64,000 nt of DNA from Siphonodentalium dalli. Its lineage: Eukaryota > Mollusca > Scaphopoda > Gadilida > Siphonodentaliidae. This document shows positions 18,174 to 56,645 of the stretch, in pieces (position 1 is the stretch's first letter; each line of letters begins with the position of its first letter). A program made the position numbers and the translations under genes. The notes beneath the pieces are model-generated. The model ran no database searches. It saw only the letters and a list, made by a program, of their open reading frames with translations, and was not told the DNA's origin. The DNA lies in assembly GCA_032622095.1 (NCBI GenBank), contig CP136068.1, forward strand, positions 2,085,314-2,149,313, given 5' to 3'.

Positions 18174-19252
18174 GCATATGTGGGCGGGGTCATCATTCGT
18201 GGTGGTTCGTTTAATGTCGGATATCTCCGGCTGTGTCGCGGTGTATCATGGGATATGTCACGTGATCGGTTCGGCTGATCTCGGCGGATTCCCCTAGGTG
18301 GCGTTACTGGCGTGTTCCATTGCTTTTGCTTCGAATCTCCGGATTTAGAGGGGCAATTTCTAGCCAAGTGATTACTGTTGCAACCCCAGCAAGATACGTG
18401 CCTTCTGTTTTCGGTCTTAAAGGGGCAGTCGCGAGCGAAATGGTCACCTTGACACGTCCAACATTCGACTGTTCGTGGTTTAATCACCGCTTCGACATGC
18501 ACCTGTCTCGGGCGTGATCGGTGTTCACGGGTCGTGTGGTCATCGCGTGCGCATATATCGCAGGTTGTTCTCGCGCGTTTGTTTCTGAAACTATCGATTT
18601 CCATTGCTTCCGGTTCGTTTTCGTTGTAATTTTCGCGGCCCGTTCGTAGGTTGAATACCCGTCGGATCCCCATTTCCCGCATGGCGATGTCGGCTGCCAA
18701 TTTTAGTGTCTTCGGCGCATCCCTGATCAACTTCATTTTCAAACTGTCGCTTCTTAAAGCGTCAATATAAAACCCTACGAGTTGGCCTTCAACCGCGTTG
18801 ATCCCGCCGGGCTGCTCTCGGTATGCCACAATCGCGATCTCCAAAATCCGTTCGGCAAGCACATGTAAATTTTCGTTTTGTTTTTGCTTGATTTTTCTTA
18901 GCATCGAAAAGGCGAATTGAATGTCATTTATCTCGGCAAATCGACTAGATAATTCAGTTTTTGTGTCTTGCCACGTGGCGTTAGGATTCGTGGCCAAATA
19001 TCTTTGTAAAAAATCTGATACGGGGCCCGTCGCGCTCTGAAATGCCATATAGGGCTTCTTTGCTTCGTTAGCGCCGGTTAGGATCGCGCATTTTTCTATC
19101 GACTTGACCCACCCGTGGTATTTCGTGGGGTCCCCGTCAAATGACGTCACTACCTGTGTCACCGTAGTCATGGCCATTGCAGCAATTTGAGAATTGATAG
19201 ATTCTGTTAATGGGGCGAGAACACCAGCTGATTGTTGTTGTTGGGTAGCCAT
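18164..19252 (-). CDS. gag: Gag polyprotein (Gypsy copy A), intact
   Basis: 362 codons from the ATG at 19252 (MATQQQQSAG). An upstream TTG extends the frame by five codons, but the ATG is preferred. The N-terminal two thirds is the capsid-like region (FDGDPTKYHGWVKSIEKCA and ATWQDTKTELSSRF, resembling the retrotransposon gag domain that packs RNA into particles). The C-terminal part is basic with three Cys/His clusters: CDICARDDHTTREH (about residues 231-244, C2HH-like and perhaps not zinc-binding), CWTCQGDHFARDC (264-276) and CWGCNSNHLARNC (288-300). The last two are CX2CX3HX4C, one residue shorter than the usual CX2CX4HX4C knuckle. The gene ends in GCAAAAAACTAA, which places a slippery heptamer directly before its stop. 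It should assemble cytoplasmic particles and bind RNA. Confidence 0.88.
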   Translation of the reverse strand: MATQQQQSAGVLAPLTESINSQIAAMAMTTVTQVVTSFDGDPTKYHGWVKSIEKCAILTGANEAKKPYMAFQSATGPVSDFLQRYLATNPNATWQDTKTELSSRFAEINDIQFAFSMLRKIKQKQNENLHVLAERILEIAIVAYREQPGGINAVEGQLVGFYIDALRSDSLKMKLIRDAPKTLKLAADIAMREMGIRRVFNLRTGRENYNENEPEAMEIDSFRNKRARTTCDICARDDHTTREHRSRPRQVHVEAVIKPRTVECWTCQGDHFARDCPFKTENRRHVSCWGCNSNHLARNCPSKSGDSKQKQWNTPVTPPRGIRRDQPNRSRDISHDTPRHSRRYPTLNEPPRMMTPPTYAKN

Positions 19253-19360
19253 TATGATAATAAACAATTAGACTCACGTTTTGCGAATTTTCCCACACTG
19301 TTTCTGTGCACACTGTTCCTCTTCTGGCTTCACGTTGTGTCTGTGATTAGCGTTCAGATC

Positions 19361-19377
19361 CTGGCTCGAAGGCACCA
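19361..19377 (-). promoter_or_regulatory. Candidate primer binding site (copy A)
   Basis: On the minus strand TGGTGCCTTCGAGCCAG begins 11 bases inside the 5' LTR. It starts with TGG, as required to pair with a tRNA CCA end, and resembles the acceptor end of tRNA-Tyr (CTCGAAGG) with one extra base. The same sequence occurs in copy B. Primer identity is tentative. Confidence 0.5.
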
Positions 19378-19388
19378 GTTAAGAGATA

Positions 19389-20152
19389 TGTGCCAATACG
19401 GGTACATATAACTCTTAAGGCTATCAGAACTGTTTGATTATTTATATATAACAAAGTCAATAATGTTCAATCATCGGCATCTGGGTTTCTCTTCCTGTCG
19501 TCTGCTTGGTTTAGAGTCTTCTTCCGTCTTCATAGGTTGTGTGTGTCTGCTTGTCTTCTACTCGGTTGAGTTCCGGTTGAGTTCGTCTTCCTGTCGTCTG
19601 CTCTTCTTCTTCCTCCGTCGGCGCATCAGTGGGGCGTTGTTAGAAATACAAGAGCATAATGTTTACCTTGTATTTCCGTCCATTGCTCCACTCTGCTCTT
19701 CTAAGCGTCCGAGGGTTCGTGATGATCGCTTGTGTTGGTCAGATAGAAACTGGTTAGAACTGTCTTCTCATGTCGGCTTGTTTCTTCCTAAAATACCCAG
19801 TGTCTGCTAATGACGGCCATGTGTATTTTCACGGCGCGTCGGTTCATCGTACTTAGGGTAATTGAGTTATCGTCATCTCCCCATGGGTCCTATTAACTCT
19901 CCTGGTTTCAGTAGCTTTCTAGGCGATACATCTGGTCTTGCTAATCCTCAAGACCGTGTTCTGTTTACTCCACAAATCATTTCCCTATGTTATTGCATGG
20001 ACGCTCGCTAATTCGATTTGGTGCTCAGTACTTGCGATCTAGATGTGGTCAACAGCGACGCTGATATGTTTGGTAATCGAGCGCCCCTCTGACAGAGATT
20101 TCCTATCTTCTTCCCGGGTTGAAAGTTATGTCCCTGTGGTTGTCTTGGCACA
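19389..20152 (-). repeat. 5' LTR of Gypsy copy A
   Basis: 764 bp, apparently identical to the 3' LTR. Transcription should start here toward lower coordinates; no core promoter was assigned. Confidence 0.9.
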
Positions 20153-32901: not shown

Positions 32902-33666
32902 TGTGCCAATACGGGTACATATAACTCTTAAGGCTATCAGAACGGTTTGATCATTTATATATAACAAAGTCAATAATGTTCAATCATCGGTATCTGGGTT
33001 TCTCTTCCTGTTGTCTGCTTGGGTTGGGATCTTCTTCCGTCTTCATAGGTTGTGTGTGTCTGCTTGTCTTCTACTCGGTTGAGTTCCGGTTGAGTTCGTC
33101 TTCCTGTCGTCTGCTCTTCTTCTTCCTCCGTCGGCGCATCAGTGGGGCGTTGTTAGAAATACAAGAGCATAATGTTTACCTTGTATTTCCGTCCATTGCT
33201 CCACTCTGCTCTTCTAAGCGTCCGAGGGTTCGTGATGATCGCTTGTGTTGGTCAGATAGAAACTGGTTAGAACTGTCTTCTCATGTCGGCTTCTTCTTCC
33301 TAAAATACCCAGTCTCTGCTAATGACGGCCATGTGTATTTTCACGGCGCGTCGGTTCATCGTACTTAGGGTAATTGAGTTATCGTCATCTCCCCATGGGT
33401 CCTATTAACTCTCCTGGTTTCAGTAGCTTTCTAGGCGATACATCTGGTCTTGATAATCCTCAAGACCGTGTTCTGTTTACTCCACAAATCATTTCCCTAT
33501 GTTATTGCATGGACGCTCGCTAATTCGATTTGGTGCTCAGTACTTTTGTGATCTAGATGTGGTCAACAGCGACGCTGATATGTGTGGTAATCGAGCGCCC
33601 CTCTGACAGAGATTTCCTATCTTCTTCCCGGGTTGAAAGTTATGTCCCTGTGGTTGTCTTGGCACA
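32902..33666 (-). repeat. 3' LTR of Gypsy copy B
   Basis: 765 bp, TGTGCCAATACGGG to CTTGGCACA. It differs from the copy A LTRs at about ten shared positions (for example GAACGGTTTGATCATTTA against GAACTGTTTGATTATTTA), marking a distinct subfamily. Confidence 0.9.
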
Positions 33667-34578
33667 TTACTCCTTCACTTTTTCGATTTAAAGTTGATCT
33701 TGAAATCGCAAGTCCAATTCGTCGCTGCGCAGCAGGTCGATGATTCGTCGAAGTGTTTCGCAACAGCGGCATCGGCGATGGATAGCTGGTTCGATGTCGG
33801 TCGTCTCCGTGTAGATCGGGTCGTCTGGGCGTCTCTCAGACAACTCCGACCTACTGGCTGTGACTCTTTGGGTGTAAAACTATGATTGAAATCGCATGGC
33901 GTTGTCGTATTCATTTCGGTCCGGGTCGTTATTTTCTATTGTTGGTTGTGGGTGGGGTCGGCATTCGGATTAGGGGTCGTCAGATCGGCCCAATACGAAA
34001 ATGGAATTTACAACTAATTATATAGATGGATTTGTTGACGAACAGTTTAAACACCAGATAAGTCGGGGTGATTGATTTCAATTATCAAAACGTATGACTG
34101 AATGTCGGGATTTATAGTCCCTATTCAACGCTTGCTATAATCATTCTGATGATTATACAACTATAATACCCTGGACATCGTTATGCAACAATTAATATTT
34201 GAAATATATGAAATGCATAAATGTCTATATACATGCAAATGATTCTGATATCCGCGCAACAATAATTACGGAGGAAATTCGGAATACATTAATATACGAT
34301 ACATAATTAATACTAATCCAAATCCGCCACAGATGTGGTCAGCCTCTGACGGCTATAATTGGATATACATGTAGGCGTTCCTGAGTGTTGTCCCGGAATA
34401 GCGCAGACGGCTTTGGTGCATCCGTCTCCATTGCTTCGTCGATGGGTTCTTTGAACACGGCATTCAGGATATCCTCAGGTCGCTGGTCTAACTATTTTCA
34501 ACATTTACGAAGCCAGGTTAGGTTTGCCAATAAGCCAGTTAAGGGTAGGGTCGCATTTCTTCTGTAATGGACCCCAGG
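33667..34578 (-). other. 3' untranslated region of Gypsy copy B
   Basis: Matches the copy A 3' region in two blocks. The small membrane-type ORF is broken: only its C-terminal half remains (about 34370-34490), because the region matching 16076-16484 of copy A is deleted at a CTAACT repeat. Confidence 0.65.
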
Positions 34579-35288
34579 TCACTGTTTCGAGCACTCTATT
34601 ATTATCGCTGATAGCAGGGCTTGAAGCGACGGTTTGCCTATTAAGTTGATGCTCGCTCCATTCATGAGCTGCTTACACTTGCGAGGGGCCGGTACGGGCC
34701 TAGATTCACGAGGGTTTTGTTCAATGGCGGCCACTTCCATTAACTCATCCTCTGAGCTGTCATCACTTGTAAACATCTTTGTTACTTTGCGCCCGTTTCG
34801 ACGAGGCGCTGGAGCGCGTCGTGCCTTGGCACTCGGCTCTGGTCTCTCGTCCATGGACGAGTCAGGGTTTTTGTAGCGGCTCTGAGCGCGCGAGTCGCGT
34901 CTTTCTACGCTGTAAGCGCATCTTAAGCTCGCTTAAAGGGACATCTTCGTCATCGGAGTCCGAACATTGTCTCCGATATCGAGCGATTACATCATCTGGT
35001 AATGGTTCTGTTTCATCGCCAGAAGACCCACCCACAGGGTTAGGGGCAGGGAACGTCGCTATCTTCGTCTTCGGGGGGAACAACATACGTTTGAGCACGC
35101 TTGTTGTTGTCAGTTTTGGGGATTTCCCATTCCAGGTTGGCTTTGCGCATATGTTCAGCATGGGATTGTGTGACTTTCCCAGTTAATTGATTCCTTAACT
35201 CGAAAGTAACGGGCGTTATTTGCTTGGTTATGCGGAAGTAGGGTTTCCATTTGCTTTCAAGTTTGCTTTTTCGTAAATGATTCTTCAC
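34579..35288 (-). pseudogene. pol: Integrase C-terminal tail, frameshifted (Gypsy copy B)
   Basis: Carries the GPY/F-like segment (YFRITKQITPVTFELRN) that usually closes a Ty3/Gypsy integrase, then an acidic stretch and a basic, Ser/Asp-rich tail, as in copy A. Breaks occur near 35050 and near 34860-34900, splitting it into three frames. The last 30 residues differ from copy A, where the two elements diverge sharply. Confidence 0.75.
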
Positions 35289-36330
35289 ATAGACGGCCTC
35301 GCCAATCTCGAATTTGGTGTCTGTGGCCTTTTGTTAAATTTCGCTGCTTGTTGGCGTTTCGCCTGTTTCACGTGTTTGTGTACCATCATAAAGGATTTGT
35401 GCTGTTGTTGCAGAGCTATCTGATGGTAATCTTCTCCCGCGTATTTACGCCTGGGTTTTAGGAGATTGTCTATTGGGAACACGACGTCTCGGTTGTACAA
35501 CAAGAAAAAGGGGGAGAATTTTGAAGTTTCATTTTTGTTAAATCGAATCGCAGCTAGTGCTTGATTTAAATGGACGTCCCACGTGTTTATTTGGTCTGCC
35601 ACTTTCTTTGAGACAATGTCTTTAAAAGTCCTGTGAAATCTCTCTACTCTACTGTTGCTCTGGGGGTGATAATAAGACGTAGTCACGTGGTGAATGTTCA
35701 AAGCCTTCAGAGTGTCCCCTGACCTTGTAATTAATGTTCTCACTGCCGTTATCGGTTATTATTTCTAGAGGGCATCCATGTCGCGGGAATATCTCGTCGA
35801 TCAAGAGATGAACAACGTTATCGGCTGACTTGTCCTTGACCGGAAAACGCTTCTGCCCACCCGCTATATAAGTCTATGAAGCTGATAATGTAGCGGTTAC
35901 CCGATAGCGACGTGGGGTAGGGCCCTGATAGGTCCAACCCAATTTTGGCAAAAGGGTAGGGGGGCGTGTCCGTTATTTGCATTTTAGGGGATTGTTTTTG
36001 CAGAGACCTGACTTGGCAGGTCACGCACTTTCCAACGTAACAGTTTAGTTCCCTTGTACAGTCTGGGCCAAAAATATTTCGACCTAATCGCATCATGCGT
36101 TTTGTCTACTCCCACGTGGCCGTTATCATCGTGGTATTGTTGGATTATGTTGGTTTGAAGATGTGCGGGCACCCAAAGGGGCGTGGGGTCGGTTCTGCGT
36201 CAGCACTCGAGAGGTAATAGAGTACCCCGTCAATCATCAAGTGTTTGTCATTCCGGGTGTCCTCGCCTTTGTCGAGGGCCTCCAGAACTGACGCAATTTC
36301 CGGGTCTTTCTTTTGTTCCTCAAGCATGTT
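35285..36330 (-). pseudogene. pol: Integrase zinc and catalytic domains, frameshifted (Gypsy copy B)
   Basis: The order on the minus strand is an HHCC-type zinc region (HLQTNIIQQYHDDNGHVG, later CYVGKCVTCQ), then a DDE core with the first catalytic Asp in KIGLDLSGPYPTSL, and the final Glu in YYHPQSNSRVERFHRTFKD. This enzyme inserts the cDNA into the genome. At least three frame changes (near 36170, 35990-36100 and 35740) prevent one continuous product, and the middle Asp region (35744-35817) is out of frame with both sides. Confidence 0.85.
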
Positions 36331-36990
36331 GAAGCCTGGCTTGTTGAACAGTAGATTAGTAGGTTGGTAAGCCTGACCAATTTGAGTTTTATTCGGGCAG
36401 TTCCTTTGGGGTTACCTCGCAGCTTGCGAAGTCTTTGGGTTTTAAATCGAGACGAATTCAAGGCGGCGATTTCCGCTTGGGTCTCGGCGACAGTAAAGTT
36501 ATTGTCGTTGATATCTACCTCTACTTCTGCCTTCTCTTGTTCCGTATAAGCATTAGGTGGCGTTCGACTGAGCAGGTCTGCGCAGTGATTATCTGGGCCA
36601 GCTATGTACTCAATGTTACAGTTATATCCAGTTATGCCCAAAGCCCACTGTTGAATTTTCTTGTTCTGCATGGGGGATTCCAAGAGATACTTCAATGGTT
36701 TATGATCTGTTTTTATCGTGAAAGTGGCGTTATGAAGGTAATGGTCCCAACCTTTGTAATGCGAAGTGAATTGCATATGCCTCTTTCTCCACAGTTGGCC
36801 ATCGGGTTTGAGTATCACCAAGTTTGTGTGAGAGATAATAAATTGGTTCTTCAACGCCATCTGAGCCCAACTGGGTCAGACAGGCACCGATGCAAAGGTC
36901 GCTTGCATCAGTATACAATGTATAGGGCGTGGCCGTATTTGGGTAGGCCAGGAGAGGCACTGCCGTGAGATTTTCTTTTAGTTTGTCAAA
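36331..36990 (-). pseudogene. pol: RNase H domain, frameshifted (Gypsy copy B)
   Basis: Contains the Ty3/Gypsy RNase H signature YTLYTDASDLCIGACLTQ with the catalytic Asp, then WPTVEKEAYAIHFALQR with the Glu, FTIKTDHKPLKYLLES, and the closing GPDNHCADLLSR. It would degrade the RNA strand of the cDNA hybrid. The domain is read across two overlapping frames, broken near 36740-36780. Confidence 0.85.
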
Positions 36991-37830
36991 CGAAATTTGG
37001 CAAGCTTGGTCCCATTTGAATTTGGCATATTTTTTTTGTAAGCTGTACCAAAGGTTCAGCGATTTGCGAAAATGAGGGGACAAATCTGCGGTAGTAGTTG
37101 CTCATGCCAATGAAGGAACGTACTTCTTTTACTGATGTTGGGGGCACAAGCGACCGGATGGCCTTGACCTTGTCGGGGTCAGGTCGGACGCCGTCGGGTA
37201 TCAATTATAAAACCCAAATACCGTGTTTCTTGCTTTAGGAATTGGCACTTTTTTAATTTTAATTTCAGTGTATGTTGGCGCAACTTGTCAAAGACTTTCT
37301 GGATATGTTCCAAGTGTAATTCTAGGGACTCGCTGTAGATGAGGACGTCGTCTAAGTAGGCAATGGCGTAATCACCCATCCCACATAACACCTGGGCCAT
37401 CAGCTGGGAGAAAACCCCCTCCAGCGTTCCGGAGCCCAAAAGGCATGGAGTTGAATTCAAAAAGACCTCCGGTGGCAAGCGAATGCCGTCTTTTGCTTGT
37501 CCTCCTCTGCGACCTGGCACTGCCAATAACCGCTTTTGAGATCGATAGCGGGTGAAGAATTTAGATTTTCCAAGAAGTGCCAAAATATCGTCGATAACCG
37601 GAAGTGGGTATGACATAGGTTTGGTTTACGGCATTTAATTGCCTGAAGTCGACGCAAAATCGTTTGGTGCCATCGCGCTTATCAACCATAACAATCTGGA
37701 CTTGAGTAAGGACTCGAACTCGGCCTGATAATGTCTGCTTCTAGCATATCATTTATGGCAACGTCAACCACCGGTCGTTTATTCAAAGGGGTGCGATACG
37801 GGCGAAGTTTTATTGGAGGGTGGTTTCCCG
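36991..37830 (-). pseudogene. pol: Reverse transcriptase domain, frameshifted (Gypsy copy B)
   Basis: Seen in successive pieces: the N-terminal fingers (NDMLEADIIRPSSSPYSSP), KRDGTKRFCVDFRQLNA, SYPLPVIDDILALLGKSK, IDLKSGYWQCQVAEEDK with the first catalytic Asp, and AIAYLDDVLIYSES with the YLDD active site. The thumb begins with EVRSFIGMSNYYRRFVPSF. The order is typical of Ty3/Gypsy. Breaks near 37690, 37560-37610, 37200 and 37075 mean that no active enzyme can be made from this copy as assembled. Confidence 0.88.
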
Positions 37831-38834
37831 TGTCGATATGCATTTTGACTGTGCTCGTCTGTGTCAGCTCGGTATCTTTGTCGGCAAAGATGTCCGAGTT
37901 GGACTTCAACAATTTTATCAGTGTTTCTCGGTATCGCTCTGGGCACGAAACTTCGGCCAAATTTAATCTTTTCTCGCCGGTAGCGCGCGCTGACCTAGAG
38001 TTGTCTACCCTGTTATGGCCGGCGCGTCTAAGGGCGTAGCCATCGTCGCGGTAATTACGGGTCGTCGGGAACTGGGAGCTTTGTGACAAAGAGTTAATTT
38101 CGCGGCTGGTTCCAGGGTCACACACTACCGTCTTGCCGATTACACTGCCCCGTCGTAGGCGAAACGTTTTGTTCGTGTTATTGACGAGTAATACCGGGAC
38201 CTTGTTCCTCTTGCCCACCCCAGAAATGGAGCTGCCGATTTCCAGACCGGGTTCTGACGCTAGGTAGCCTGTCTCGATTTGGGCCACCTCTACTAATGTC
38301 GACTTGCGAAGAGAAGCTAAGTTTTTTGATTTTCCCATACATAAAGTTGATGTTTGAGGCTTTAAGCTAACCTTGCTGGTCAATCTCAGCAGGGAAGCTA
38401 TGTGCGCGTCCGATTCCAATGGGACGTACACGTCACTGACCTTGAGGCATCCCAGATCATAATATAGTCTGACCCCCCGAGAGGTCAACCAATCCCTCCC
38501 CAAGATCATATTCCGGGTCATATCATTCGCCACATAAAATTTATGGGTTAATTTTAGTTTCGCCATTCTGAAGGTCAGTTCCACGCTACCAAGTACGCCC
38601 AGTGACTTCCCATTCACGGAGCTAAGGTTGATGTGTTCCCTAGTTAGTTTCGGTCGGAACTGTAATGCGTCAATAGACGCGTTTGTGAATCAATGATACC
38701 TCCGCTCCACTATCAACTAATGAGCGATATTTATTTTTACCTATTCTAACTAAACAGGAGCTGGGGTTCCCTACAATATTTATGTTATATTTCCTCCCAT
38801 TTGTGGCCTCAATGAGAGGATTCCTTAGTTTTTT
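37831..38834 (-). pseudogene. pol: Protease and RT-connecting region, frameshifted (Gypsy copy B)
   Basis: Homologous to the copy A protease, including the ILGRDWL-type motif. A one-base insertion near 38671, relative to copy A, falls just after the catalytic DSG region and breaks the frame. Downstream, about 311 codons stay open through a basic linker to the RT fingers. The gag-pol slippery heptamer is conserved (plus strand GTTTTTT at 38828-38834). Confidence 0.8.
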
Positions 38835-39893
38835 GCATATGTGGGCGGGGTCATCATTCGTGGCGGTTCGTTTAATGTCGGATATCTCCGGCTGTGTCGC
38901 GGTGTATCATGGGATATGTCACGTGATCGGTTCGGCTGATCTCGGCGGATTCCCCTAGGTGGCGTTACCGGCGCGTTCCATTGATTTCGCTTCGAACCTC
39001 CGGATTTGGAGGGGCAATTTCTAGCTAAGTGGTTACCTTCGCAAACCCAGCAAGATACGTGCCTCCGGTTTTCGGTCTTAAAGGGGCAGTCGCGATCGAA
39101 ATGATCACCTTGACACGTCCAACATTCGACCGTTCGTGGTTTAACCACCGCATCGACATGCACCTGTCTCGGGCGTGATCTGTGTTCTCGGGTCGTGTGA
39201 TTATCGCTTGCGCACACATCGCAGGTTGTTCTCGCGCGTTTGTTTCTGAAACTATCGATTTCCATTGCTTCCGGTTCGTTTTCGTTGTAATTTTCGCGGC
39301 CCGTTCGTAGGTTGAATACCCGTCGGATCCCCATTTCCCGCATGGCGATGTCGGCTGCCAATTTCAGTGTCTTCGGCGCATCCCTGATCAACTTCATTTT
39401 CAAACTGTCGCTTCTTAAAGCGTCAATATAAAACCCTACGAGTTGGCCTTCAACCGCGTTGATCCCACCGGTTTGCTCTCGGGATCTCCAAAATCCGTTC
39501 GGCAAGCACATGTAAATTTTCGTTTTGTTTTTGCTTGATTTTTCTTAGCATCGAAAAGGCGAATTGAATGTCATTTATCTCGGCAAATCGACTAGATAAT
39601 TCAGTTTTTGTGTCTTGCCACGTGGCGTTAGGATTCGTGGCCAAATATCTTTGTAAAAAATCTGATACGGGGCCCGTCGCGCTCTGGAATGCCATATAGG
39701 GCTTCTTTGCTTCGTTAGCGCCGGTTAGGATCGCGCATTTTTCTATCGACTTGACCCACCCGTGGTATTTCGTGGGGTCCCCGTCAAATGACGTCACTAC
39801 CTGTGTGACCGTAGTCATGGCCATTGCAGCAATTTGAGAATTGATAGACTCTGTTAATGGGGCGAGAACACCAATTGATTGTTGGGTAGCCAT
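38825..39893 (-). pseudogene. gag: Gag with a 14-bp deletion (Gypsy copy B)
   Basis: ATG at 39893 (MATQQSIG). It is more than 95% like the copy A Gag by eye, with the same capsid-like region and Cys/His clusters CDVCASDNHTTREH, CWTCQGDHFDRDC and CWVCEGNHLARNC. Relative to copy A, 14 bases are missing near 39482, so the frame breaks after the capsid-like region and the nucleic-acid-binding half is out of frame. Otherwise it would be the structural protein of the particle. Confidence 0.85.
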
Positions 39894-40000
39894 TATGATA
39901 ATAAACAATTAGACTCACGTTTTGCGAATTTTCCCACACTGTTTTTTTCCACACTGTTCCTCTTCTGGTTTCACGTTGTGTCTGTGATTAGCGTTCAGAT

Positions 40001-40018
40001 CCTGGCTCGAAGGCACCA
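40001..40018 (-). promoter_or_regulatory. Candidate primer binding site (copy B)
   Basis: Same minus-strand sequence as in copy A, TGGTGCCTTCGAGCCAGG, about 11 bases inside the 5' LTR. tRNA-Tyr-like match, tentative. Confidence 0.5.
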
Positions 40019-40029
40019 GTTAAGAGATA

Positions 40030-40794
40030 TGTGCCAATACGGGTACATATAACTCTTAAGGCTATCAGAACGGTTTGATCATTTATATATAACAAAGTCA
40101 ATAATGTTCAATCATCGGTATCTGGGTTTCTCTTCCTGTCGTCTGCTTGGGTTGGGATCTTCTTCCGTCTTCATAGGTTGTGTGTGTCTGCTTGTCTTCT
40201 ACTCGGTTGAGTTCCGGTTGAGTTCGTCTTCCTGTCGTCTGCTCTTCTTCTTCCTCCGTCGGCGCATCAGTGGGGCGTTGTTAGAAATACAAGAGCATAA
40301 TGTTTACCTTGTATTTCCGTCCATTGCTCCACTCTGCTCTTCTAAGCGTCCGAGGGTTCGTGATGATCGCTTGTGTTGGTCAGATAGAAACTGGTTAGAA
40401 CTGTCTTCTCATGTCGGCTTCTTCTTCCTAAAATACCCAGTCTCTGCTAATGACGGCCATGTGTATTTTCACGGCGCGTCGGTTCATCGTACTTAGGGTA
40501 ATTGAGTTATCGTCATCTCCCCATGGGTCCTATTAACTCTCCTGGTTTCAGTAGCTTTCTAGGCGATACATCTGGTCTTGATAATCCTCAAGACCGTGTT
40601 CTGTTTACTCCACAAATCATTTCCCTATGTTATTGCATGGACGCTCGCTAATTCGATTTGGTGCTCAGTACTTTTGTGATCTAGATGTGGTCAACAGCGA
40701 CGCTGATATGTGTGGTAATCGAGCGCCCCTCTGACAGAGATTTCCTATCTTCTTCCCGGGTTGAAAGTTATGTCCCTGTGGTTGTCTTGGCACA
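40030..40794 (-). repeat. 5' LTR of Gypsy copy B
   Basis: 765 bp and nearly identical to 32902-33666. TAAA follows as target duplication. Confidence 0.9.
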
Positions 40795-41334: not shown

Positions 41335-41434
41335 NNNNNNNNNNNNNNNNNNNNNNNNNNNNNNNNNNNNNNNNNNNNNNNNNNNNNNNNNNNNNNNNNN
41401 NNNNNNNNNNNNNNNNNNNNNNNNNNNNNNNNNN
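41335..41434. other. Assembly gap (100 N)
   Basis: Exactly 100 N, the usual size for a gap of unknown length. Open frames crossing it are meaningless. Confidence 0.99.
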
Positions 41435-45600: not shown

Positions 45601-45751
45601 AGTGCCTTGAAGTGATCTTTTACAGCACTAACCAATGAACTAGCACATGCTCTGTGCCATAACCAATGGAATGGAGCCATTATGGAGGGAATCTACAGAT
45701 CTAGAGATATACAATGTATGAAGAATACATGAGAATGAATCTCTCAGCGTT

Positions 45752-47621
45752 CAAGACCAGAGCTGTGTTAAAGACCAGGACTGTCTCCATGATCAGGACT
45801 GTGTTAAATACCAGAGCTGTGTTAAAGACCAGGACTGTCTCCATGATCAGGACTGTGTTAAATACCAGAGCTGTGTTAAAGACCAGGACTGTGGTAAAGA
45901 CCAGGACTGTGTTAAAGACCAGGACTGTGTTAAAGACCAGGACTGTGTTAAAGACCAGGACTGTGTTAAAGACCAGGACTGTGGTAAAGACCAGGACTGT
46001 GTTAAAGACCAGGACTGTGTTAAAGACCAGGACTGTGTTAAAGACCAGGACTGTGGTAAAGACCAGGACTGTGTTAAAGACCAGGACTGGGTTAAAGACC
46101 AGGACTGTGTTTAAGACCAGGACTGTGTTAAAGACCAGGACTGTGTTAAAGACCAGGACTGTGTTAAAGACCAGGACTGTGTTAAAGACCAGGACTGTGG
46201 TAAAGACCAGGACTGTGTTAAAGACCAGGACTGTGTTAAAGACCAGGACTGTGTTAAAGACCAGGACTGTGGTAAAGACCAGGACTGTGTTAAAGACCAG
46301 GACTGGGTTAAAGACCAGGACTGTGTTTAAGACCAGGACTGTGTTAAAGACCAGGACTGTGTTAAAGACCAGGACTGTGTTAAAGACCAGGACTGTGTTA
46401 AAGACCAGGACTGTGTTAAAGACCAGGACTGTGGTAAAGACCAGGACTGTGTTAAAGACCAGGACTGTGTTAAAGACCAGGACTGTGTTAAAGACCAGGA
46501 CTGTGGTAAAGACCAGGACTGTGTTAAAGACCAGGACTGGGTTAAAGACCAGGACTGTGTTTAAGACCAGGACTGTGTTAAAGACCAGGACTGTGTTAAA
46601 GACCAGGACTGTGTTAAAGACCAGGACTGTGTTAAAGACCAGGACTGTGGTAAAGACCAGGACTGTGTTAAAGACCAGGACTGTGTTAAAAACCAGGACT
46701 GTGTTAAAGACCAGGACTGTGGTAAAGACCAGGACTGTGGTAAAGACCAGGACTGTGTTAAAGACCAGGACTGTGTTAAAGACCAGGACTGTGTTAAAGA
46801 CCAGGACTGTGTTAAAGACCAGGACTGTGTTAAAGACCAGGACTGTGGTAAAGACCAGGACTGTGTTAAAGACCAGGACTGTGTTAAAGACCAGGACTGG
46901 GTTAAAGACCAGGACTGTGTTAAAGACCAGGACTGTGGTAAAGACCAGGACTGTGGTAAAGACCAGGACTGTGTTAAAGACCAGGACTGTGTTAAAGACC
47001 AGGACTGTGGTAAAGACCAGGACTGTGTTAAAGACCAGGACTGTGTTAAAGACCAGGACTGGGTTAAAGACCAGGACTGTGTTAAAGACCAGGACTGTGT
47101 TAAAGACCAGGACTGTGTTAAAGACCAGGACTGGGTTAAAGACCAGGACTGTGTTAAAGACCAGGACTGGGTTAAAGACCAGGACTGTGTTAAAGACCAG
47201 GACTGTGTTAAAGACCAGGACTGTGTTAAAGACCAGGACTGGGTTAAAGACCAGGACTGTGTTAAAGACCAGGACTGGGTTAAAGACCAGGACTGTGTTA
47301 AAGATCAGGACTGTGGTAAATACCAGAGCTGTGTTAAAGACCAGGATTGTCTCCATGATCAGGACTGTGTTAAATACCAGAGCTGTGTTAAAGACCAGGA
47401 CTGTCTCCATGATCAGGACTGTGTTAAATACCAGAGATGTGTTAAAGACCAGGACTGTCTCCATGATCAGGACTGTGTTAAATACCAGAGCTGTGTTAAA
47501 GACCAGGACTGTCTCCATGATCAGGACTGTGTTAAGGACCAGGACTGTCTCTATGATCAGGACTGTGGTAAATACCAGAGATGTGTTAAAGACCAGGATT
47601 GTCTCCATGATCAGGACTGTG
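45752..47621. repeat. 18-bp minisatellite, left block (about 104 units)
   Basis: The unit is GTTAAAGACCAGGACTGT, with variants GTGG, GGGTT and GTTTAAG. At both ends of this block a 54-bp higher-order unit (three variants: AAATACCAGAGCTGTGTT, AAAGACCAGGACTGTCTC and a CATGATCAGGACTGTG type) replaces the plain unit. The period is a multiple of three, so long frames stay open on both strands; they are not genes. The array continues at 56056 beyond the palindromic element. Confidence 0.95.
47616..47621. other. Left 6-bp target site duplication of the palindromic element
   Basis: ACTGTG here and at 56056-56061. Joining the flanks with one copy gives the uninterrupted minisatellite phrase CAGGACTGTGTTAAATACC. 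Confidence 0.85.
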
Positions 47622-47639
47622 AGAAGAATAGGGGGCTCG

Positions 47640-48843
47640 TTAGCCTCACATCTAAAAATAGAATCTTTGGGGTCTAAAATTGGTTGTACTAAAATATTCC
47701 CAAAATATCAAAAACCCAAAAATTATTTTTCCAAATAAAATTTCAAAACTTCCAAAATTTATTTTTTCCAAAAAATTTAAAAACTTCCAAAAAATTTCAA
47801 AACCCTAAAATTTCCAAACTTCCAAATTATCAAAACCCTCAAAATTATTTCTCTAAAAAAAGTTTAAATAAAAAAAATTATAACGAGTTTTCGGTTTCTG
47901 ATAAACTCGATATTAAAAAATGTCGAATGTTAAATTATTTGCGTGTAATATCTTTCGTTATTTTTTGTTCAAATATTTTTCATGAATTTATTAATCGATG
48001 TTTAGAAATAGCTTTATTGGACATTGTGACCATCGATATGAATGCATACATTCCAGTGTTTTATCGGACGCAGTTCATATAATTGTCATACCTGAAAATA
48101 CACACCATTACTTTTTACATAAATAATAAAGAGCGTTTATTCTTTACTTATCTCTATATGAAGTTATTGAGTATATGACAGGCGTGTATTTTCGTCAATT
48201 ATTGGAAGTATTCAAATGTACTATGTTGAATCCCTAACGGTCGAAAATTGTAATGTGAAATTAGAACCCTCCAGAATGAATTGTCATATTGAATGAATGA
48301 TGATTTAATCTCAGCCATTTTTACATGGAACATGAGCGATGTACACTCAATCACACACGCCACATTGGTGTTAACAATGTGTCTTTCACACCTTTGCTTT
48401 ACCAAATGAATTATATTATTTCCCCGGTCACAGCTATATGGTATTCAGAAAACAAATCGATTTAATGTCTGAACAAAACGAGTTAGTATCAATTAAGGTT
48501 GATAAACTGTGTCATTCACACGATAATTAGTTAGCCAAAAACATGCATACATATTACGTCAGGTCGTGAGACACTCAATTATACAAATTGCTTTGATGAC
48601 ATTGTTATAACAACATTACGTAATAACCCCTTATCACTCCATTCACACTTACGACCATTTTGTATACCGAAACTACAGGTAGCACCGATGATGTAACATT
48701 ATATCACTGCTATTGTACCAATGATAGATTCAGACATGTTCCATGTTTAGAGAAATAGATAATCTGCAGGTGTTCACTTGACAAGAGATTTTGTACACTC
48801 AATCACAGACCAACGTGATAATACCAGCCCACACCCAACCCCC
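47640..48843. other. Outer part of the left arm, no recognised gene
   Basis: The terminal 250 bp are very A-rich with repeated CCAAAA words, followed by AT-rich DNA. A 68-codon frame (48199-48405, minus) recurs in the mirror arm only because the arms are copies. No motif seen. Confidence 0.5.
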
Positions 48844-48845
48844 AA

Positions 48846-48897
48846 GTTACCTATAATTCTGCTGTGGTTAAGCCACAACAACAACAACAACAACACC

Positions 48898-48928
<31 letters not shown>

Positions 48929-49080
48929 GTCACCAAGCGACATAACATCCTGTTTTGATGATCCAATGGCCAATGTCCATGAAGATTTTATTTCCGATGC
49001 AAGTCATATTTCAGACTAACTCCTGAAAAGTTACCTATAATTCTGCTGTGGTTAAGCAGTCCATTATTTAGGGCATACCT
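48846..49080. mobile_element. Rearranged MITE A remnants enclosing an ATPase gene fragment (left arm)
   Basis: A piece of MITE A arm (GTTACCTATAATTCTGCTGT) leads into a CAA-repeat and about 70 bp matching the ATPase coding sequence just after its polyglutamine (encodes SDITSCFDDPMANVHEDF). A right MITE A arm follows, ending GGGCATACCTG. The ATPase fragment runs opposite to the intact gene of this arm and has a few base differences. Confidence 0.8.
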
Positions 49081-49240
49081 GTATGTAGGCCTACCAGTGG
49101 ATGAATAGTCTGCCGGAGAAGTACTGTGTAGACAGGTCTTGTCGGTAAGAAAGTCAGACGAGTAGTGAAGGCTCGGCTATTAAAACATAGTAATGCGATA
49201 GCGAACATCAAACGAGTCTGCGCACGCATATCTGTCAAAG

Positions 49241-49335
49241 GATACAAGGGCAGTCATTGGTCAATTTATCCCCGGTGTCAGCTCAGTACAATGGCAGTCA
49301 TTGGTCAATTTATCCCCGGTGTCAGCTCAGTACAC
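49241..49335. repeat. 41-42 bp tandem duplication in the left arm
   Basis: GGCAGTCATTGGTCAATTTA, then TCCCCGGTGTCAGCTCAGTACA, occurs twice. The mirror copy is at about 54340-54430. Confidence 0.85.
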
Positions 49336-49671
49336 AATCGGCACGAAGCCGGAGGTCATAATTACTCTTACGAATGAAGAGCGTTGAACATATACGAAAT
49401 TATTACACGAATGAACTGAAATTTATATTTCACATCTTACCAACAACAGATACAGACATAGTCATAGTGTTATATTATCTTACATGTACCCATGCTATGA
49501 CATACTTAAAGGGGGATAATGCACACACGGTGTGTGGAATGTTAAAGTGACACGAGGTAAGGGACGTTATGTAATATTGGTGTGTGAATATTAAAGGAGC
49601 ATTCTCGCTATACAAACCCCCCTCCCCACTTATAGATATATAACGAAGACGAGAATAACATGTTGATGAAG

Positions 49672-49677
49672 TTTATT
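49672..49677 (-). terminator. Polyadenylation signal of the left ATPase gene
   Basis: AATAAA on the minus strand, about 6 bases past the stop codon. Mirrored at 53994-53999 in the right arm. Confidence 0.65.
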
Positions 49678-49682
49678 GAAAT

Positions 49683-51222
49683 TTAATCATTGTCTGAATC
49701 TTCGACCGTTAGATTTACTTCTAAGAGTTTCTTGAATTTTCTCATCGCTTCATCTGCAGCCCATTCATTATTATATCCGCGTTTGGTCAGTTTGACCATT
49801 TTCTTCATGATCGTGTTATGTATGGGTGATGTTTTCAATCGATACTGGTATTCTATTAATCGTCTATAACTTTTGAGAAACAGAACAAACTCTGTGTCGA
49901 TGGTATCCTCTTTTCCCGACATGCTCTCATCTCCCGAAATGCTCTCTTCTTCTTTCACATCAGTGGTGACGCGTTTCATCATACTTTTGAATGTGTCCAT
50001 CTCGTTGACACATCGCGCAGCTTTCTTAAGACCGAATACCGTTCTACTACCGACGACATTACCATCTTTTGAATCTGATAGCGTTCCTCGTTCATCTTCA
50101 TCTGTATCTTCTCCGAAGAGAGTTGTTTTTGTCTCGGACATAGCTCCGTGTTCATCCGGGTCCTCAGTTAATTTTCGTTTTAACTTATTTTCTTGACACC
50201 AGTTTTTTACGTGTCTCTGAACATCATAATGATCTGCGAACAAAAGCCCGCATTCATTACAAGGGTACGACATGTCTTCTCGAATGTCTATACGTTTCTT
50301 CTTATTAATTTCATCGAGCTCACCAGGTGGCCGTATGTCGTTAGTATAGTCATTATGTTGACCCTGGGGCACAATATAATTATATGTTATGCCCTTCTGT
50401 TGACCAGGGAGTTCTCTGTCATCGTATTTCATCGCATTCTGTTGACCCAGGGTCTCAGTGTCTTTTGTATGTTTTTTCATCCCACTCTGTTCATCTGGGT
50501 GTTCTCTGTCTTTTTGGAGATTATATTTCATGCCATTCCATTCACCCCTATGTTGGTTCGTGTCCTCTTTTAGTACATTCTGTCGCAGACGTAATGTGTC
50601 CGGTGTTGCGGCTTTTAAATCCACAAGTAGGTAACCGTACGGTTCACTCGTCGCTTCCGAAAACTCTCGAACCATACGCTGAGGACATTCAGGATACATC
50701 TGTCTTGATAATGTTGAAATTAATCCCTTGTCGATTGGGTTATTGAACAATACCAAATATTGACAATTTCGTCGTTGCGTTGGATCTTTGTTGTAGTAGA
50801 AATTCTGGTTCAAACTTATCAAAGATAAGTTCAAATGGTGACTTCCTTCGGAATGCAAATCATTAACTCTCTGGTCTTTTGATGAAGTTTGCATCAAGTC
50901 ATCGAGTATAACTAGATTTTTATACCGGGGGTTGATAAGCGAATCCAAGTTTGCTGGTATTCCTCGTATAAAGTTGACCTGAGGGGTGACGGTATACTTT
51001 AATTCGTCATATAGGGGCTGCCAATATTTATAAAACCATATTATTCTGTCAGGTGCGGGTGATATTTTTGAGGCAGACTTTTGTAGTAAGGTTTTCACGA
51101 AGTATGTCTTACCACAAGATGTCGGTCCACTTACACATGCCGTGAATGGATGCTTGAAAATAAAATCTTCATGGACATTGGCCATTGGATCATCAAAGCA
51201 GGATGTTATGTCGCTTGGTGGC

Positions 51223-51268
<46 letters not shown>

Positions 51269-51437
51269 GGGGGTGATGATACTGTTGTTGTTGTTGTTGT
51301 TGTTGTTGTTGTGGCTGATGATACTGTTGTTGTTGCTGTTGTTGTTGTTCTGAAGGCGTGTGTTTAACTTTGATATGACGCTTCAAACTATCTTGCCAAG
51401 CATAGACACTTAAGCACTCTTCACATTGATACTTCAT
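49683..51437 (-). CDS. Zinc-finger/polyQ packaging-type ATPase, left arm (intact)
   Basis: 584 codons from the ATG at 51437. Order: a C2H2 finger (CEECLSVYAWQDSLKRHIKVKH, residues about 5-26, shown in shortened family form CX2CX12HX4H), then three glutamine tracts of 8, 10 and 16 residues separated by YHQP and YHHP (31-72), then the ATPase core. Walker A is SGPTSCGKT (about 103-111) and Walker B is NLVILDDLM (174-182). A conserved polar segment LSLISLNQNFYYN follows, as in poxvirus A32-like/FtsK-HerA packaging ATPases used by Polintons and related viruses to move DNA into capsids. A second Cys/His cluster (CNECGLLFADHYDVQRH..., C2HC-like) lies near residue 390. The C-terminus is acidic, ending in a basic, helical-looking segment. 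The gene is followed at once by AATAAA on its strand. The zinc fingers and polyQ are unlike a minimal Polinton ATPase. Function is inferred from motifs. Confidence 0.85.
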
Positions 51438-52237
51438 TTAACTAGTTCAGGCTGTCGTTCACAACGTCTCTTAGTGTTGTTTGTACTGGATACAAATTTA
51501 TCACATTAGCTACAATACAACCTACCTATCCAAATGTCAATGCAATTATGAGTGATTTCAATATGAACACTCTATTATATAGATATGTGTAACCTGGTGA
51601 CTGACATGATGATACAGTTATGCACTAAATAAAGGACTGCTTAACCACAGCAGAATTATAGGTAACTTTTCAGGAGTTAGTCGGAAATATGGCTTGTTGC
51701 CATTCATCGGAAAGCTCTCGCCGCCGGCGGCATTGCGGTGGTGTTGTTGTTGTTGTTGTTGTTGTTGTTGTGACGCCGGCGGCGGCGGCGGCATTGCAGT
51801 ATTTTACTGCGGGGGTCCGCCGGCGGCGGACCCCGGCGGCGGCGGCGGCACCGCCGCCGCAGTAAAATACCGCAATGCCGCCGCCGCCGCCGCCGCCGGC
51901 GTCACAACAACAACAACAACAACAACAACAACACCACCGCAATGCCGCCGGCGGCGAGAGCTTTCCGATGAATGGCAACAAGCCATATTTCCGACTAACT
52001 CCTGAAAAGTTACCTATAATTCTGCTGTGGTTAAGCAGTCCTTTATTTAGTGCATAACTGTATCATCATGTCAGTCACCAGGTTACACATATCTATATAA
52101 TAGAGTGTTCATATTGAAATCACTCATAATTGCATTGACATTTGGATAGGTAGGTTGTATTGTAGCTAATGTGATAAATTTGTATCCAGTACAAACAACA
52201 CTAAGAGACGTTGTGAACGACAGCCTGAACTAGTTAA
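51438..52237. promoter_or_regulatory. Divergent promoter region at the palindrome centre
   Basis: About 800 bp separate the two ATPase start codons. On each side a TATA-like TATATAATAG (about 51572-51581 on minus, 52094-52103 on plus) stands about 135-145 bp upstream of the ATG. The middle is the expanded MITE A. Promoter function is inferred. Confidence 0.45.
51615..52060. mobile_element. MITE A at the palindrome centre, expanded with (CAA)n and GCC-rich DNA
   Basis: CAGTTATGCACTAAATAAAG to the inverse ending GCATAACTG, flanked by TA. Between the usual arms lie about 230 bp built of GCCGCCGGCGG blocks, (GTT)n/(CAA)n tracts and the core GGGTCCGCCGGCGGCGGACC at about 51812. It is a strong local GC peak and hairpin. 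Confidence 0.85.
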
Positions 52238-52409
52238 ATGAAGTATCAATGTGAAGAGTGCTTAAGTGTCTATGCTTGGCAAGATAGTTTGAAGCGTCAT
52301 ATCAAAGTTAAACACACGCCTTCAGAACAACAACAACAACAGCAACAACAACAGTATCATCAGCCACAACAACAACAACAACAACAACAACAACAGTATC
52401 ATCACCCCC

Positions 52410-52449
<40 letters not shown>

Positions 52450-53988
52450 GCCACCAAGCGACATAACATCCTGCTTTGATGATCCAATGGCCAATGTCCA
52501 TGAAGATTTTATTTTCAAGCATCCATTCACGGCATGTGTAAGTGGACCGACATCTTGTGGTAAGACATACTTCGTGAAAACCTTACTACAAAAGTCTGCC
52601 TCAAAAATATCACCCGCACCTGACAGAATAATATGGTTTTATAAATATTGGCAGCCCCTATATGACGAATTAAAGTATACCGTCACCCCTCAGGTCAACT
52701 TTATACGAGGAATACCAGCAAACTTGGATTCGCTTATCAACCCCCGGTATAAAAATCTAGTTATACTCGATGACTTGATGCAAACTTCATCAAAAGACCA
52801 GAGAGTTAATGATTTGCATTCCGAAGGAAGTCACCATTTGAACTTATCTTTGATAAGTTTGAACCAGAATTTCTACTACAACAAAGATCCAACGCAACGA
52901 CGAAATTGTCAATATTTGGTATTGTTCAATAACCCAATCGACAAGGGATTAATTTCAACATTATCAAGACAGATGTATCCTGAATGTCCTCAGCGTATGG
53001 TTCGAGAGTTTTCGGAAGCGACGAGTGAACCGTACGGTTACCTACTTGTGGATTTAAAAGCCGCAACACCGGACACATTACGTCTGCGACAGAATGTACT
53101 AAAAGAGGACACGAACCAACATAGGGGTGAATGGAATGGCATGAAATATAATCTCCAAAAAGACAGAGAACACCCAGATGAACAGAGTGGGATGAAAAAA
53201 CATACAAAAGACACTGAGACCCTGGGTCAACAGAATGCGATGAAATACGATGACAGAGAACTCCCTGGTCAACAGAAGGGCATAACATATAATTATATTG
53301 TGCCCCAGGGTCAACATAATGACTATACTAACGACATACGGCCACCTGGTGAGCTCGATGAAATTAATAAGAAGAAACGTATAGACATTCGAGAAGACAT
53401 GTCGTACCCTTGTAATGAATGCGGGCTTTTGTTCGCAGATCATTATGATGTTCAGAGACACGTAAAAAACTGGTGTCAAGAAAATAAGTTAAAACGAAAA
53501 TTAACTGAGGACCCGGATGAACACGGAGCTATGTCCGAGACAAAAACAACTCTCTTCGGAGAAGATACAGATGAAGATGAACGAGGAACGCTATCAGATT
53601 CAAAAGATGGTAATGTCGTCGGTAGTAGAACGGTATTCGGTCTTAAGAAAGCTGCGCGATGTGTCAACGAGATGGACACATTCAAAAGTATGATGAAACG
53701 CGTCACCACTGATGTGAAAGAAGAAGAGAGCATTTCGGGAGATGAGAGCTGTCGGGAAAAGAGGATACCATCGACACAGAGTTTGTTCTGTTTCTCAAAA
53801 GTTATAGACGATTAATAGAATACCAGTATCGATTGAAAACATCACCCATACATAACACGATCATGAAGAAAATGGTCAAACTGACCAAACGCGGATATAA
53901 TAATGAATGGGCTGCAGATGAAGCGATGAGAAAATTCAAGAAACTCTTAGAAGTAAATCTAACGGTCGAAGATTCAGACAATGATTAA
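52238..53988 (+). pseudogene. Zinc-finger/polyQ packaging-type ATPase, right arm (frameshifted C-terminus)
   Basis: The mirror copy of the left-arm gene. The first finger, glutamine tracts (9, 10 and 14 residues), Walker A (GPTSCGKT), Walker B (LVILDDLM) and second Cys/His cluster are all intact. Relative to the left arm, one base is missing near 53749-53750, so the frame ends at 53815 (525 residues) with a changed last stretch. The remaining C-terminal coding sequence runs on out of frame to the stop equivalent at 53986-53988, followed by AATAAA. The truncated product keeps the whole ATPase core, so it might still fold. Whether the indel is real or an assembly error cannot be told from sequence alone. 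Confidence 0.8.
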
Positions 53989-53993
53989 ATTTC

Positions 53994-53999
53994 AATAAA
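53994..53999 (+). terminator. Polyadenylation signal of the right ATPase gene
   Basis: AATAAA just after the original stop position; mirror of the left arm. Confidence 0.65.
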
Positions 54000-54593
54000 C
54001 TTCATCAACATGTTATTCTCGTCTTCGTTATATATCTATAAGTGGGGAGGGGGGTTTGTATAGCGAGAATGCTCCTTTAATATTCACACACCAATATTAC
54101 ATAACGTCCCTTACCTCGTGTCACTTTAACATTCCACACACCGTGTGTGCATTATCCCCCTTTAAGTATGTCATAGCATGGGTACATGTAAGATAATATA
54201 ACACTATGACTATGTCTGTATCTGTTGTTGGTAAGATGTGAAATATAAATTTCAGTTCATTCGTGTAATAATTTCGTATATGTTCAACGCTCTTCATTCG
54301 TAAGAGTAATTATGACCTCCGGCTTCGTGCCGATTGTGTACTGAGCTGACACCGGGGATAAATTGACCAATGACTGCCATTGTACTGAGCTGACACCGGG
54401 GATAAATTGACCAATGACTGCCCTTGTATCCTTTGACAGATATGCGTGCGCAGACTCGTTTGATGTTCGCTATCGCATTACTATGTTTTAATAGCCGAGC
54501 CTTCACTACTCGTCTGACTTTCTTACCGACAAGACCTGTCTACACAGTACTTCTCCAGGAGACTATTCATCCACTGGTAGGCCTACATACAGG

Positions 54594-54742
54594 TATGCCC
54601 TAAATAATGGACTGCTTAACCACAGCAGAATTATAGGTAACTTTTCAGGAGTTAGTCTGAAATATGACTTGCATCGGAAATAAAATCTTCATGGACATTG
54701 GCCATTGGATCATCAAAACAGGATGTTATGTCGCTTGGTGAC

Positions 54743-54779
<37 letters not shown>

Positions 54780-54832
54780 GGTGTTGTTGTTGTTGTTGTT
54801 GTGGCTTAACCACAGCAGAATTATAGGTAACT
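54594..54832. mobile_element. Rearranged MITE A remnants enclosing an ATPase fragment (right arm mirror)
   Basis: Mirror of 48846-49080: CAGGTATGCCCTAAATAATG, MITE arm, ATPase fragment on the minus strand, GTT-repeat, then MITE arm piece. The MITE part here reads CTAAATAATGGACTGCTTAA. Confidence 0.8.
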
Positions 54833-56037
54833 TGGGGGTTGGGTGTGGGCTGGTATTATCACGTTGGTCTGTGATTGAGTGTACAAAATCTCTTGTCAAG
54901 TGAACACCTGCAGATTATCTATTTCTCTAAACATGGAACATGTCTGAATCTATCATTGGTACAATAGCAGTGATATAATGTTACATCATCGGTGCTACCT
55001 GTAGTTTCGGTATACAAAATGGTCGTAAGTGTGAATGGAGTGATAAGGGGTTATTACGTAATGTTGTTATAACAATGTCATCAAAGCAATTTGTATAATT
55101 GAGTGTCTCACGACCTGACGTAATATGTATGCATGTTTTTGGCTAACTAATTATCGTGTGAATGACACAGTTTATCAACCTTAATTGATACTAACTCGTT
55201 TTGTTCAGACATTAAATCGATTTGTTTTCTGAATACCATATAGCTGTGACCGGGGAAATAATATAATTCATTTGGTAAAGCAAAGGTGTGAAAGACACAT
55301 TGTTAACACCAATGTGGCGTGTGTGATTGAGTGTACATCGCTCATGTTCCATGTAAAAATGGCTGAGATTAAATCATCATTCATTCAATATGACAATTCA
55401 TTCTGGAGGGTTCTAATTTCACATTACAATTTTCGACCGTTAGGGATTCAACATAGTACATTTGAATACTTCCAATAATTGACGAAAATACACGCCTGTC
55501 ATATACTCAATAACTTCATATAGAGATAAGTAAAGAATAAACGCTCTTTATTATTTATGTAAAAAGTAATGGTGTGTATTTTCAGGTATGACAATTATAT
55601 GAACTGCGTCCGATAAAACACTGGAATGTATGCATTCATATCGATGGTCACAATGTCCAATAAAGCTATTTCTAAACATCGATTAATAAATTCATGAAAA
55701 ATATTTGAACAAAAAATAACGAAAGATATTACACGCAAATAATTTAACATTCGACATTTTTTAATATCGAGTTTATCAGAAACCGAAAACTCGTTATAAA
55801 TTTTTTTATTTAAACTTTTTTTAGAGAAATAATTTTGAGGGTTTTGATAATTTGGAAGTTTGGAAATTTTAGGGTTTTGAAATTTTTTGGAAGTTTTTAA
55901 ATTTTTTGGAAAAAATAAATTTTGGAAGTTTTGAAATTTTATTTGGAAAAATAATTTTTGGGTTTTTGATATTTTGGGAATATTTTAGTACAACCAATTT
56001 TAGACCCCAAAGATTCTATTTTTAGATGTGAGGCTAA
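54833..56037. other. Outer part of the right arm, no recognised gene
   Basis: Mirror of 47640-48843; AT-rich, with T-rich TTTTGG words near the end. Confidence 0.5.
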
Positions 56038-56055
56038 CGAGCCCCCTATTCTTCT

Positions 56056-56645
56056 ACTGTGTTAAATACCAGAGATGTGTTAAAGACCAGGATTGTCTCC
56101 ATGATCAGGACTGTGTTAAATACCAGAGCTGTGTTAAAGACCAGGACTGTCTCCATGATCAGGACTGTGTTAAATACCAGAGATGTGTTAAAGACCAGGA
56201 CTGTCTCCATGATCAGGACTGTGTTAAATACCAGAGCTGTGTTAAAGACCAGGACTGTCTCCATGATCAGGACTGTGTTAAGGACCAGGACTGTCTCTAT
56301 GATCAGGACTGTGGTAAATACCAGAGCTGTGTTAAAGACCAGGATTGTCTCCATGATCAGGACTGTGTTAAATACCAGAGATGTGTTAAAGACCAGGATT
56401 GTCTCCATGATCAGGACTGTGTTAAATACCAGAGCTGTGTTAAAGACCAGGACTGTCTCCATGATCAGGACTGTGTTAAATACCAGAGATGTGTTAAAGA
56501 CCAGGACTGTCTCCATGATCAGGACTGTGTTAAATACCAGAGCTGTGTTAAAGACCAGGACTGTCTCCATGATCAGGACTGTGTTAAGGACCAGGACTGT
56601 CTCTATGATCAGGACTGTGGTAAATACCAGAGCTGTGTTAAAGAC
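56056..56645. repeat. 18-bp minisatellite, right block (about 33 units)
   Basis: Same array and orientation as the left block, mostly the 54-bp higher-order form. Begins with the second ACTGTG copy. Confidence 0.95.

Follow-up and report, generated by a model that had tools for sequence, protein, structure and literature searches.

A multi-copy family of palindromic Polinton-related elements with a conserved, predicted T-shaped centre in the scaphopod Siphonodentalium dalli

A stretch of 64,000 nucleotides from the scaphopod mollusc Siphonodentalium dalli (assembly GCA_032622095.1, contig CP136068.1, positions 2,085,314 to 2,149,313), here called the window, carries a complete palindromic element of 8,434 bp that is related to the Polintons, also known as Mavericks (Table 1). 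The mirror spans the whole of the element, which is 99.17% identical to its own reverse complement over 8,462 alignment columns, and outside the central hairpin its two arms of about 4.2 kb differ only by three substitutions, a one-base indel and four tracts of unequal length. Both ends begin AGAAGAATAGGGGG, their tips reading (AGA)2, and are flanked by the 6-bp target duplication ACTGTG. Arms mirrored from terminus to centre, Polinton-type ends and the duplication had all been put forward in the original prediction, made from the letters of the window alone, and all three held; the ATPase gene that it placed in each arm, with its own downstream AATAAA, is likewise found on both sides, except that the right copy is frameshifted and encodes 525 residues. 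Searches of open reading frames and of Pfam recognised neither PolB nor an rve integrase nor a capsid gene in the window element, Pfam matched no Rep-type nickase in it, and in 10 open frames of the outer left arm and the centre no second family exceeded the Pfam cut-off. Since neither PolB nor an rve integrase was recognised, the element is classed as a non-autonomous satellite and not as a Polinton.

The insertion site is a host minisatellite so rich in ACTGTG (79 occurrences in 1,873 bp of left flank) that the duplication might mislead. Duplication lengths from -160 to 159 were therefore tried against the minisatellite's higher-order period of 306 bp, and a duplication of 6 bp fits the repeat phase best, with 99.2% and 99.6% agreement as compared with 90.8% and 90.4% for the runner-up length of 60. 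The flanks are not mirrored: symmetry ends at the tips of the element, and the minisatellite has the same orientation on either side.

How widespread are such palindromes? The whole genome (2.23 Gb, nine contigs) was searched with the terminal 201 bases (best 40 of 1,683 candidates), which gave at least 47 matches in at least 26 loci including the window. All 26 were examined and comprise 18 palindromes, seven loci of an autonomous-type Polinton, hereafter the helper, and one single arm. Sixteen palindromes were read end to end, 14 at first and then two more; of L024, a single end was read. All 16 have the tip AGAAGA at both ends, and 13 of them are flanked by perfect 6-bp duplications that are all different, whereas those of L018 and L023 contain one mismatch and L016 is without a duplication. 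The geometric halves, gaps not counted, are 99.0–99.8% identical in 11 of 14 palindromes and less so in L017 (93.3%), L022 (96.6%) and L023 (94.5%). One palindrome (L031–L033) is a concatemer of 20,554 bp, with about three palindromic units, one pair of ends and AACGAA as its duplication. The single arm, L025:6789-9964, carries the satellite's ATPase gene and no mirror, and may be a monomer or a deletion product.

The helper is represented by L020, L026, L028, L029/30, L034/35, L036 and L037, the last two being assigned by protease matches and polymerase positions, and five of the seven loci are covered by partial sequence. The L029/L030 copy is 16,037 bp long, lies between copies of AATAAT and encodes PolB, an rve integrase with a chromodomain, an adenain-like protein just below the cut-off and an ATPase of 198 residues with weak AAA and A32 matches, also below the cut-off. 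At least 51 copies of the helper polymerase are 99–100% identical (best 51 of 2,231 candidates), and 50 of these 51 are stop-free. The region L029:7000-7521 / 7536-8186 unexpectedly holds genes for a TATA-binding protein (PF00352, 3e-32) and a PC4 transcription coactivator (PF02229, 4e-15), and a 371-residue protein at the possible position of the capsid gene matches no Pfam family.

The satellite thus shares its ends with an autonomous-type element in the same genome, as expected of a non-autonomous partner: its arm is 97% identical to the right end of the helper over 1.15 kb. DNA similarity ends after 1.15–1.22 kb, and the ATPases of satellite and helper are only about 30% identical, so the inner ~3 kb of the satellite arm is not that of the helper. 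The proposal that the palindrome arose by doubling one half of this Polinton is consequently not upheld, whereas the supply of integrase by a full element has become plausible, as the genome contains one whose ends are nearly identical. A doubling of this kind did occur elsewhere, as in L040 (1-9859; the extent read excludes the outer ends) the polymerase half of the helper forms a palindrome with arms 99.65% identical over 4.8 kb and an unmirrored spacer of 214 bp at the GC-rich middle of the helper. A second convergent pair of polymerases lies at C1:95380956-95388738. Priming by foldback at short inverted repeats has been described in yeast (PMC10622511), and the satellites could be the old product of an L040-like event that later gained a heritable hairpin tip.

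The arms meet in a centre predicted to fold into a T, which is present in 17 of the 18 palindromes (L016 and L021 being atypical and L017 retaining half only) and absent from all helper DNA examined, which for five of the seven loci is partial sequence. The stem contains the same inherited mismatch, A opposite C or, in reverse orientation, G opposite T, in 13 of the 15 centres aligned, and L012, L022 and L031 have the same three stem mismatches in common, two beyond the usual one. To the left and right of the centre, the adjoining 1,400 bp mirror each other at 99.4–100%, gaps not counted, in 14 of 15 elements, L023 being measured over 486 positions and L019 being the outlier with 84%. Such inherited asymmetry amid symmetrised surroundings is the pattern expected of a hairpin tip. 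The exact centre motif has 182 matches in the genome (85 and 97 per strand, with at least two places matching on both strands) and the reversed control pattern none, so base composition alone does not account for the motif. The centre of the window element carries one G more and falls outside these matches; among the motif places listed, five are the centres of L009, L010, L011, L015 and L018, and one falls between two ATPase genes of the census described below.

Moreover, the arms are homogeneous within elements. Over the first 1,000 bases they are 0–0.4% apart in 13 of 14 palindromes, and the tree joins the two arms of each of these 13 as sisters, the nearest foreign arm being farther away (0.7–9.1%, from the left arm). 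In contrast, the two ends of the helper are 14.6% and 13.5% apart in two copies, and between the left end of one helper and the end of another the distance is 1.1%. The ends of different palindromes resemble those of different helpers, which suggests that ends have been exchanged, seemingly in both arms at once.

The satellite ATPase has Walker A and B motifs within a fold of the FtsK-HerA / A32-like family. A genome search with it found at least 75 copies that are 98–100% identical (best 75 of 7,581 candidates; for three the main match omits the first residues), and 66 of these 75 are stop-free. Adjacent pairs number at least 27, all 27 divergent, and 25 of them are spaced by 629–1,083 bp. 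Rates of nonsynonymous and synonymous substitution (dN and dS; Nei-Gojobori method, NG86) were compared in nine pairs among seven of the 11 open reading frames of at least 560 residues. There are two versions of the N-terminal finger (dN 0.48–0.50, dS 1.47, over 28 codons) and two or more of the C-terminal part (dN near 0.53, dS near 1.0), and dN/dS between versions is 0.32–0.54, which suggests coding constraint on the gene, although the test is not strong. The finger versions, MKHQCSIC and MKYQCEEC, separate L009, L010, L011, L018, L023 and L027 from the window element, L014–L017, L019 and L024, and occur in several combinations with the C-termini around a nearly invariant ATPase core, as if modules had been exchanged. 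Five loci, called type B (L012, L013, L021, L022 and L031–L033), encode only a C2H2 and helical protein of 179–200 residues, 63–79% identical to the C-terminal part of the window protein, and keep the same hairpin tip. It is therefore the C2H2 and helical module, and not the ATPase, that is the wider shared part, and the description of the lineage as ATPase-only does not apply generally; of the proposed lineage of palindromic Polinton parasites, the palindromic copies with different duplications are real, while parasitism itself would follow from the mechanism considered below.

Table 1. Features of the palindromic element and its insertion site (positions in the window)
Feature	Position	Strand	Basis or remark
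Host minisatellite (18-bp unit), insertion site of the element, left side	45749..47621		
Left copy of 6-bp target duplication ACTGTG	47616..47621		306-bp higher-order repeat phase
Complete palindromic element	47622..56055		8,434 bp; two ends and 6-bp duplication
Left tip AGAAGA = (AGA)2	47622..47627	+	sequence
Left-arm segment common to helper Polinton right end, 97.3%	47622..48775	+	arm 1-1154 vs L030
Outlying inverted piece of ATPase 5' part	48882..48993	+	97.3% to 51158-51269
Half copy of host palindromic MITE	49000..49083	-	variants in common with central copy
C2H2-ATPase-C2H2-helical protein, 584 residues, intact	49683..51437	-	open reading frame, domain match, core fold
MITE arm, left of centre	51613..51719	+	107/107 identity to own mirror
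Conserved central T-shaped hairpin (predicted)	51791..51878		19-bp stem, one A:C mismatch, two GC-rich cross-arms
First cross-arm hairpin	51812..51834		10-bp stem, 3-nt loop
Second cross-arm hairpin	51836..51860		10-bp stem
MITE arm, right of centre	51956..52062	-	mirror of 51613..51719
Mirror ATPase gene copy, 525 residues	52238..53815	+	frameshift near 3' end truncates
Right-arm mirror of outlying ATPase 5' fragment	54678..54802	-	mirror of 48882..48993
Right-arm mirror of helper-like end	54902..56055	-	left-arm mirroring
Right tip (AGA)2	56050..56055	-	sequence
Right copy of 6-bp target duplication ACTGTG	56056..56061		306-bp higher-order repeat phase
Host minisatellite, right side of element	56056..56645		

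The MITE (miniature inverted-repeat transposable element) is a palindromic host repeat of about 220 bp that starts TACAGTAATGCCC and occurs at many places between 1074 and 62668 of the window; outside the element there are nine head-to-head pairs, with arms 88–94% alike in the seven compared. The window also contains two related retroelement copies on the minus strand (14375-19810 and 32925-40496) with near-identical flanking open frames, gypsy-like by eye (a label given without a family search), and a run of 100 N at 41335-41434 that is probably a scaffold gap.

How could a palindrome be propagated with its arms alike and its centre asymmetric? We consider it probable that the window element belongs to a multi-copy lineage of palindromic Polinton satellites that employs the ends of the helper and is transmitted via a snap-back hairpin. 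Because its arms end in terminal sequence shared with the helper, the protein-primed DNA polymerase and the integrase of the helper could act on the satellite, and mobilisation by these enzymes is suggested by the common ends and the equal length of the duplications. A displaced strand of the palindrome would fold back to give a hairpin roughly 4.2 kb long, T-shaped at its tip and with a single duplex end that contains the origin AGAAGA. Synthesis primed at this end and continued round the tip would restore the 8.4-kb duplex, which would then integrate with a 6-bp duplication. Since the hairpin pairs the two arms with each other, they would be made alike in each cycle, while the tip would be handed on unchanged and keep its asymmetry. 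As the weakest step, the FtsK-HerA-type ATPase between its C2H2 fingers may steer satellite DNA into helper particles. A bolder formulation, towards which we are open while leaning slightly against it, is a hybrid replicon: a linear molecule of 4.2 kb with a Polinton-type protein-primed end and a parvovirus-like T-hairpin telomere, carried in the chromosome as a dimer, exchanging ends with different helper lineages and encoding a zinc-finger packaging motor.

Several observations weigh against the preferred reading. The centres of L014 and L024 are properly paired at the position of the mismatch in the other 13, and covariation in the centre is slight, only one of 36 pairs having changed on both sides, so that the centre may be conserved as sequence as much as for its fold. 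Few of the motif places could be placed in palindromes and some may be stand-alone repeats. The arms of L022 are 7.7% apart at their ends, and one column among the 26 arm differences in the 13 homogeneous elements is common to four elements, a small point. For the ATPase, dN/dS over the whole gene is only 0.43–0.65, dS is saturated in the N-terminal comparison, which covers 28 codons, and a few of the ratios within versions, on very few changes, are high (C-terminus of the window element against L027, 1.0; core of L009 against L010, 0.55); moreover, packaging by the ATPase is not the common trick of the family, as five loci are without the ATPase domain. Finally, neither a replication intermediate nor a particle has been observed.

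Alternatively, the hairpin could be a dispersed GC-rich foldback repeat that was present in the founder by chance and was conserved through recent descent and not for function, which is unlikely though by no means negligible. The 182 exact motif matches, some less than 2 kb apart, and the host MITE adjoining the window element's centre speak for it, but type B palindromes, diverged as their C-terminal protein is, retain the tip, and the reversed pattern finds nothing. Distinctly unlikely, in our view, is that the palindrome arose once, that helper enzymes spread it in ordinary double-stranded form and that gene conversion homogenises its arms after integration. Arm-to-arm conversion is known in long chromosomal palindromes, and most copies are homogeneous over their whole length; however, the long inverted ends of the helper stay 13–15% apart in two copies, albeit with some 16 kb between them, and the stem mismatch and the cross-arm asymmetry persist where conversion should be easiest. 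That each palindrome was made anew, by a single-arm element or half element folding back at a GC-rich tract, is improbable: L040 with its 214-bp spacer proves that such an event occurs, the single arm L025 exists and foldback priming is described in yeast (PMC10622511), but independent accidents would yield differing centres, as L040 does, whereas 17 of the 18 satellites have one centre in common, asymmetry included, and L012, L022 and L031 even share their two extra mismatches. An assembly artefact can practically be dismissed, for although fold-back reads are a known source of palindromes, the mirror of the window element ends at its tips within a one-directional minisatellite, the 6-bp duplication is backed by the repeat phase, 13 palindromes have perfect and different duplications, and the arms carry private differences.

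The preferred reading, a helper-dependent satellite with a hairpin tip, combines traits of several known systems. Polintons are regarded as integrated viruses, and the satellite shares with them the 6-bp target duplication, the repeated tip starting with AG and the long inverted ends common to the autonomous-type copy, but it is wholly palindromic, has no recognised polymerase, integrase or capsid gene and encodes an ATPase unlike that of the helper. Its centre, as predicted, resembles a parvovirus-type hairpin telomere in placing two cross-arms on a stem, whereas the Rep-type nickase that belongs to such telomeres was not recognised by Pfam in the window element. The terminal hairpin of adeno-associated virus has a similar T plan; this virus is not known to have a protein-primed end or such a packaging ATPase, or to form a chromosomal multi-copy family. 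Phage-inducible islands and virophages would be alike in helper dependence and redirection of packaging, but here the genome is palindromic and lies in an animal; satellite viruses of the virophage type have capsid genes of their own, and none was recognised in the window element. A deletion derivative of the linear plasmid kalilo of Neurospora is reportedly palindromic. Kalilo is a protein-primed linear replicon, and its derivative is reported, in work cited by PMC11071308, to form hairpin and duplex DNA; unlike the satellite, the derivative is not an integrated gene-carrying family. Defective particles of adeno-associated virus are described as containing snap-back double-stranded genomes with part of the viral genes (PMC8235507). 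The palindromic rDNA of Tetrahymena and foldback-primed inverted duplications are, as their accounts have it, also built from short inverted repeats (PMC5182062, PMC10622511), but they belong to host chromosomes and not to a transmissible element. The tips of vertebrate Mavericks are (AGT)2, (AG)3 or (AC)3A, and such short repeats are thought to serve jumping-back in protein-primed replication (PMC8097293); Maverick particles, the same account indicates, have not been observed to date.

A young helper, with at least 51 near-identical polymerase copies, together with abundant satellites makes a natural system for studying Polinton replication, mobilisation in trans and packaging. If the arms are identical at insertion, their divergence may date each copy, as the long terminal repeats of retroviruses do. 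Furthermore, the linkage of a protein-primed type of end to a hairpin tip would bear on the origin of parvovirus-Polinton hybrids such as the bidnaviruses, and the satellites, if this reading is true, would be a novel kind of parasite, one that exploits a virus resident in the genome.
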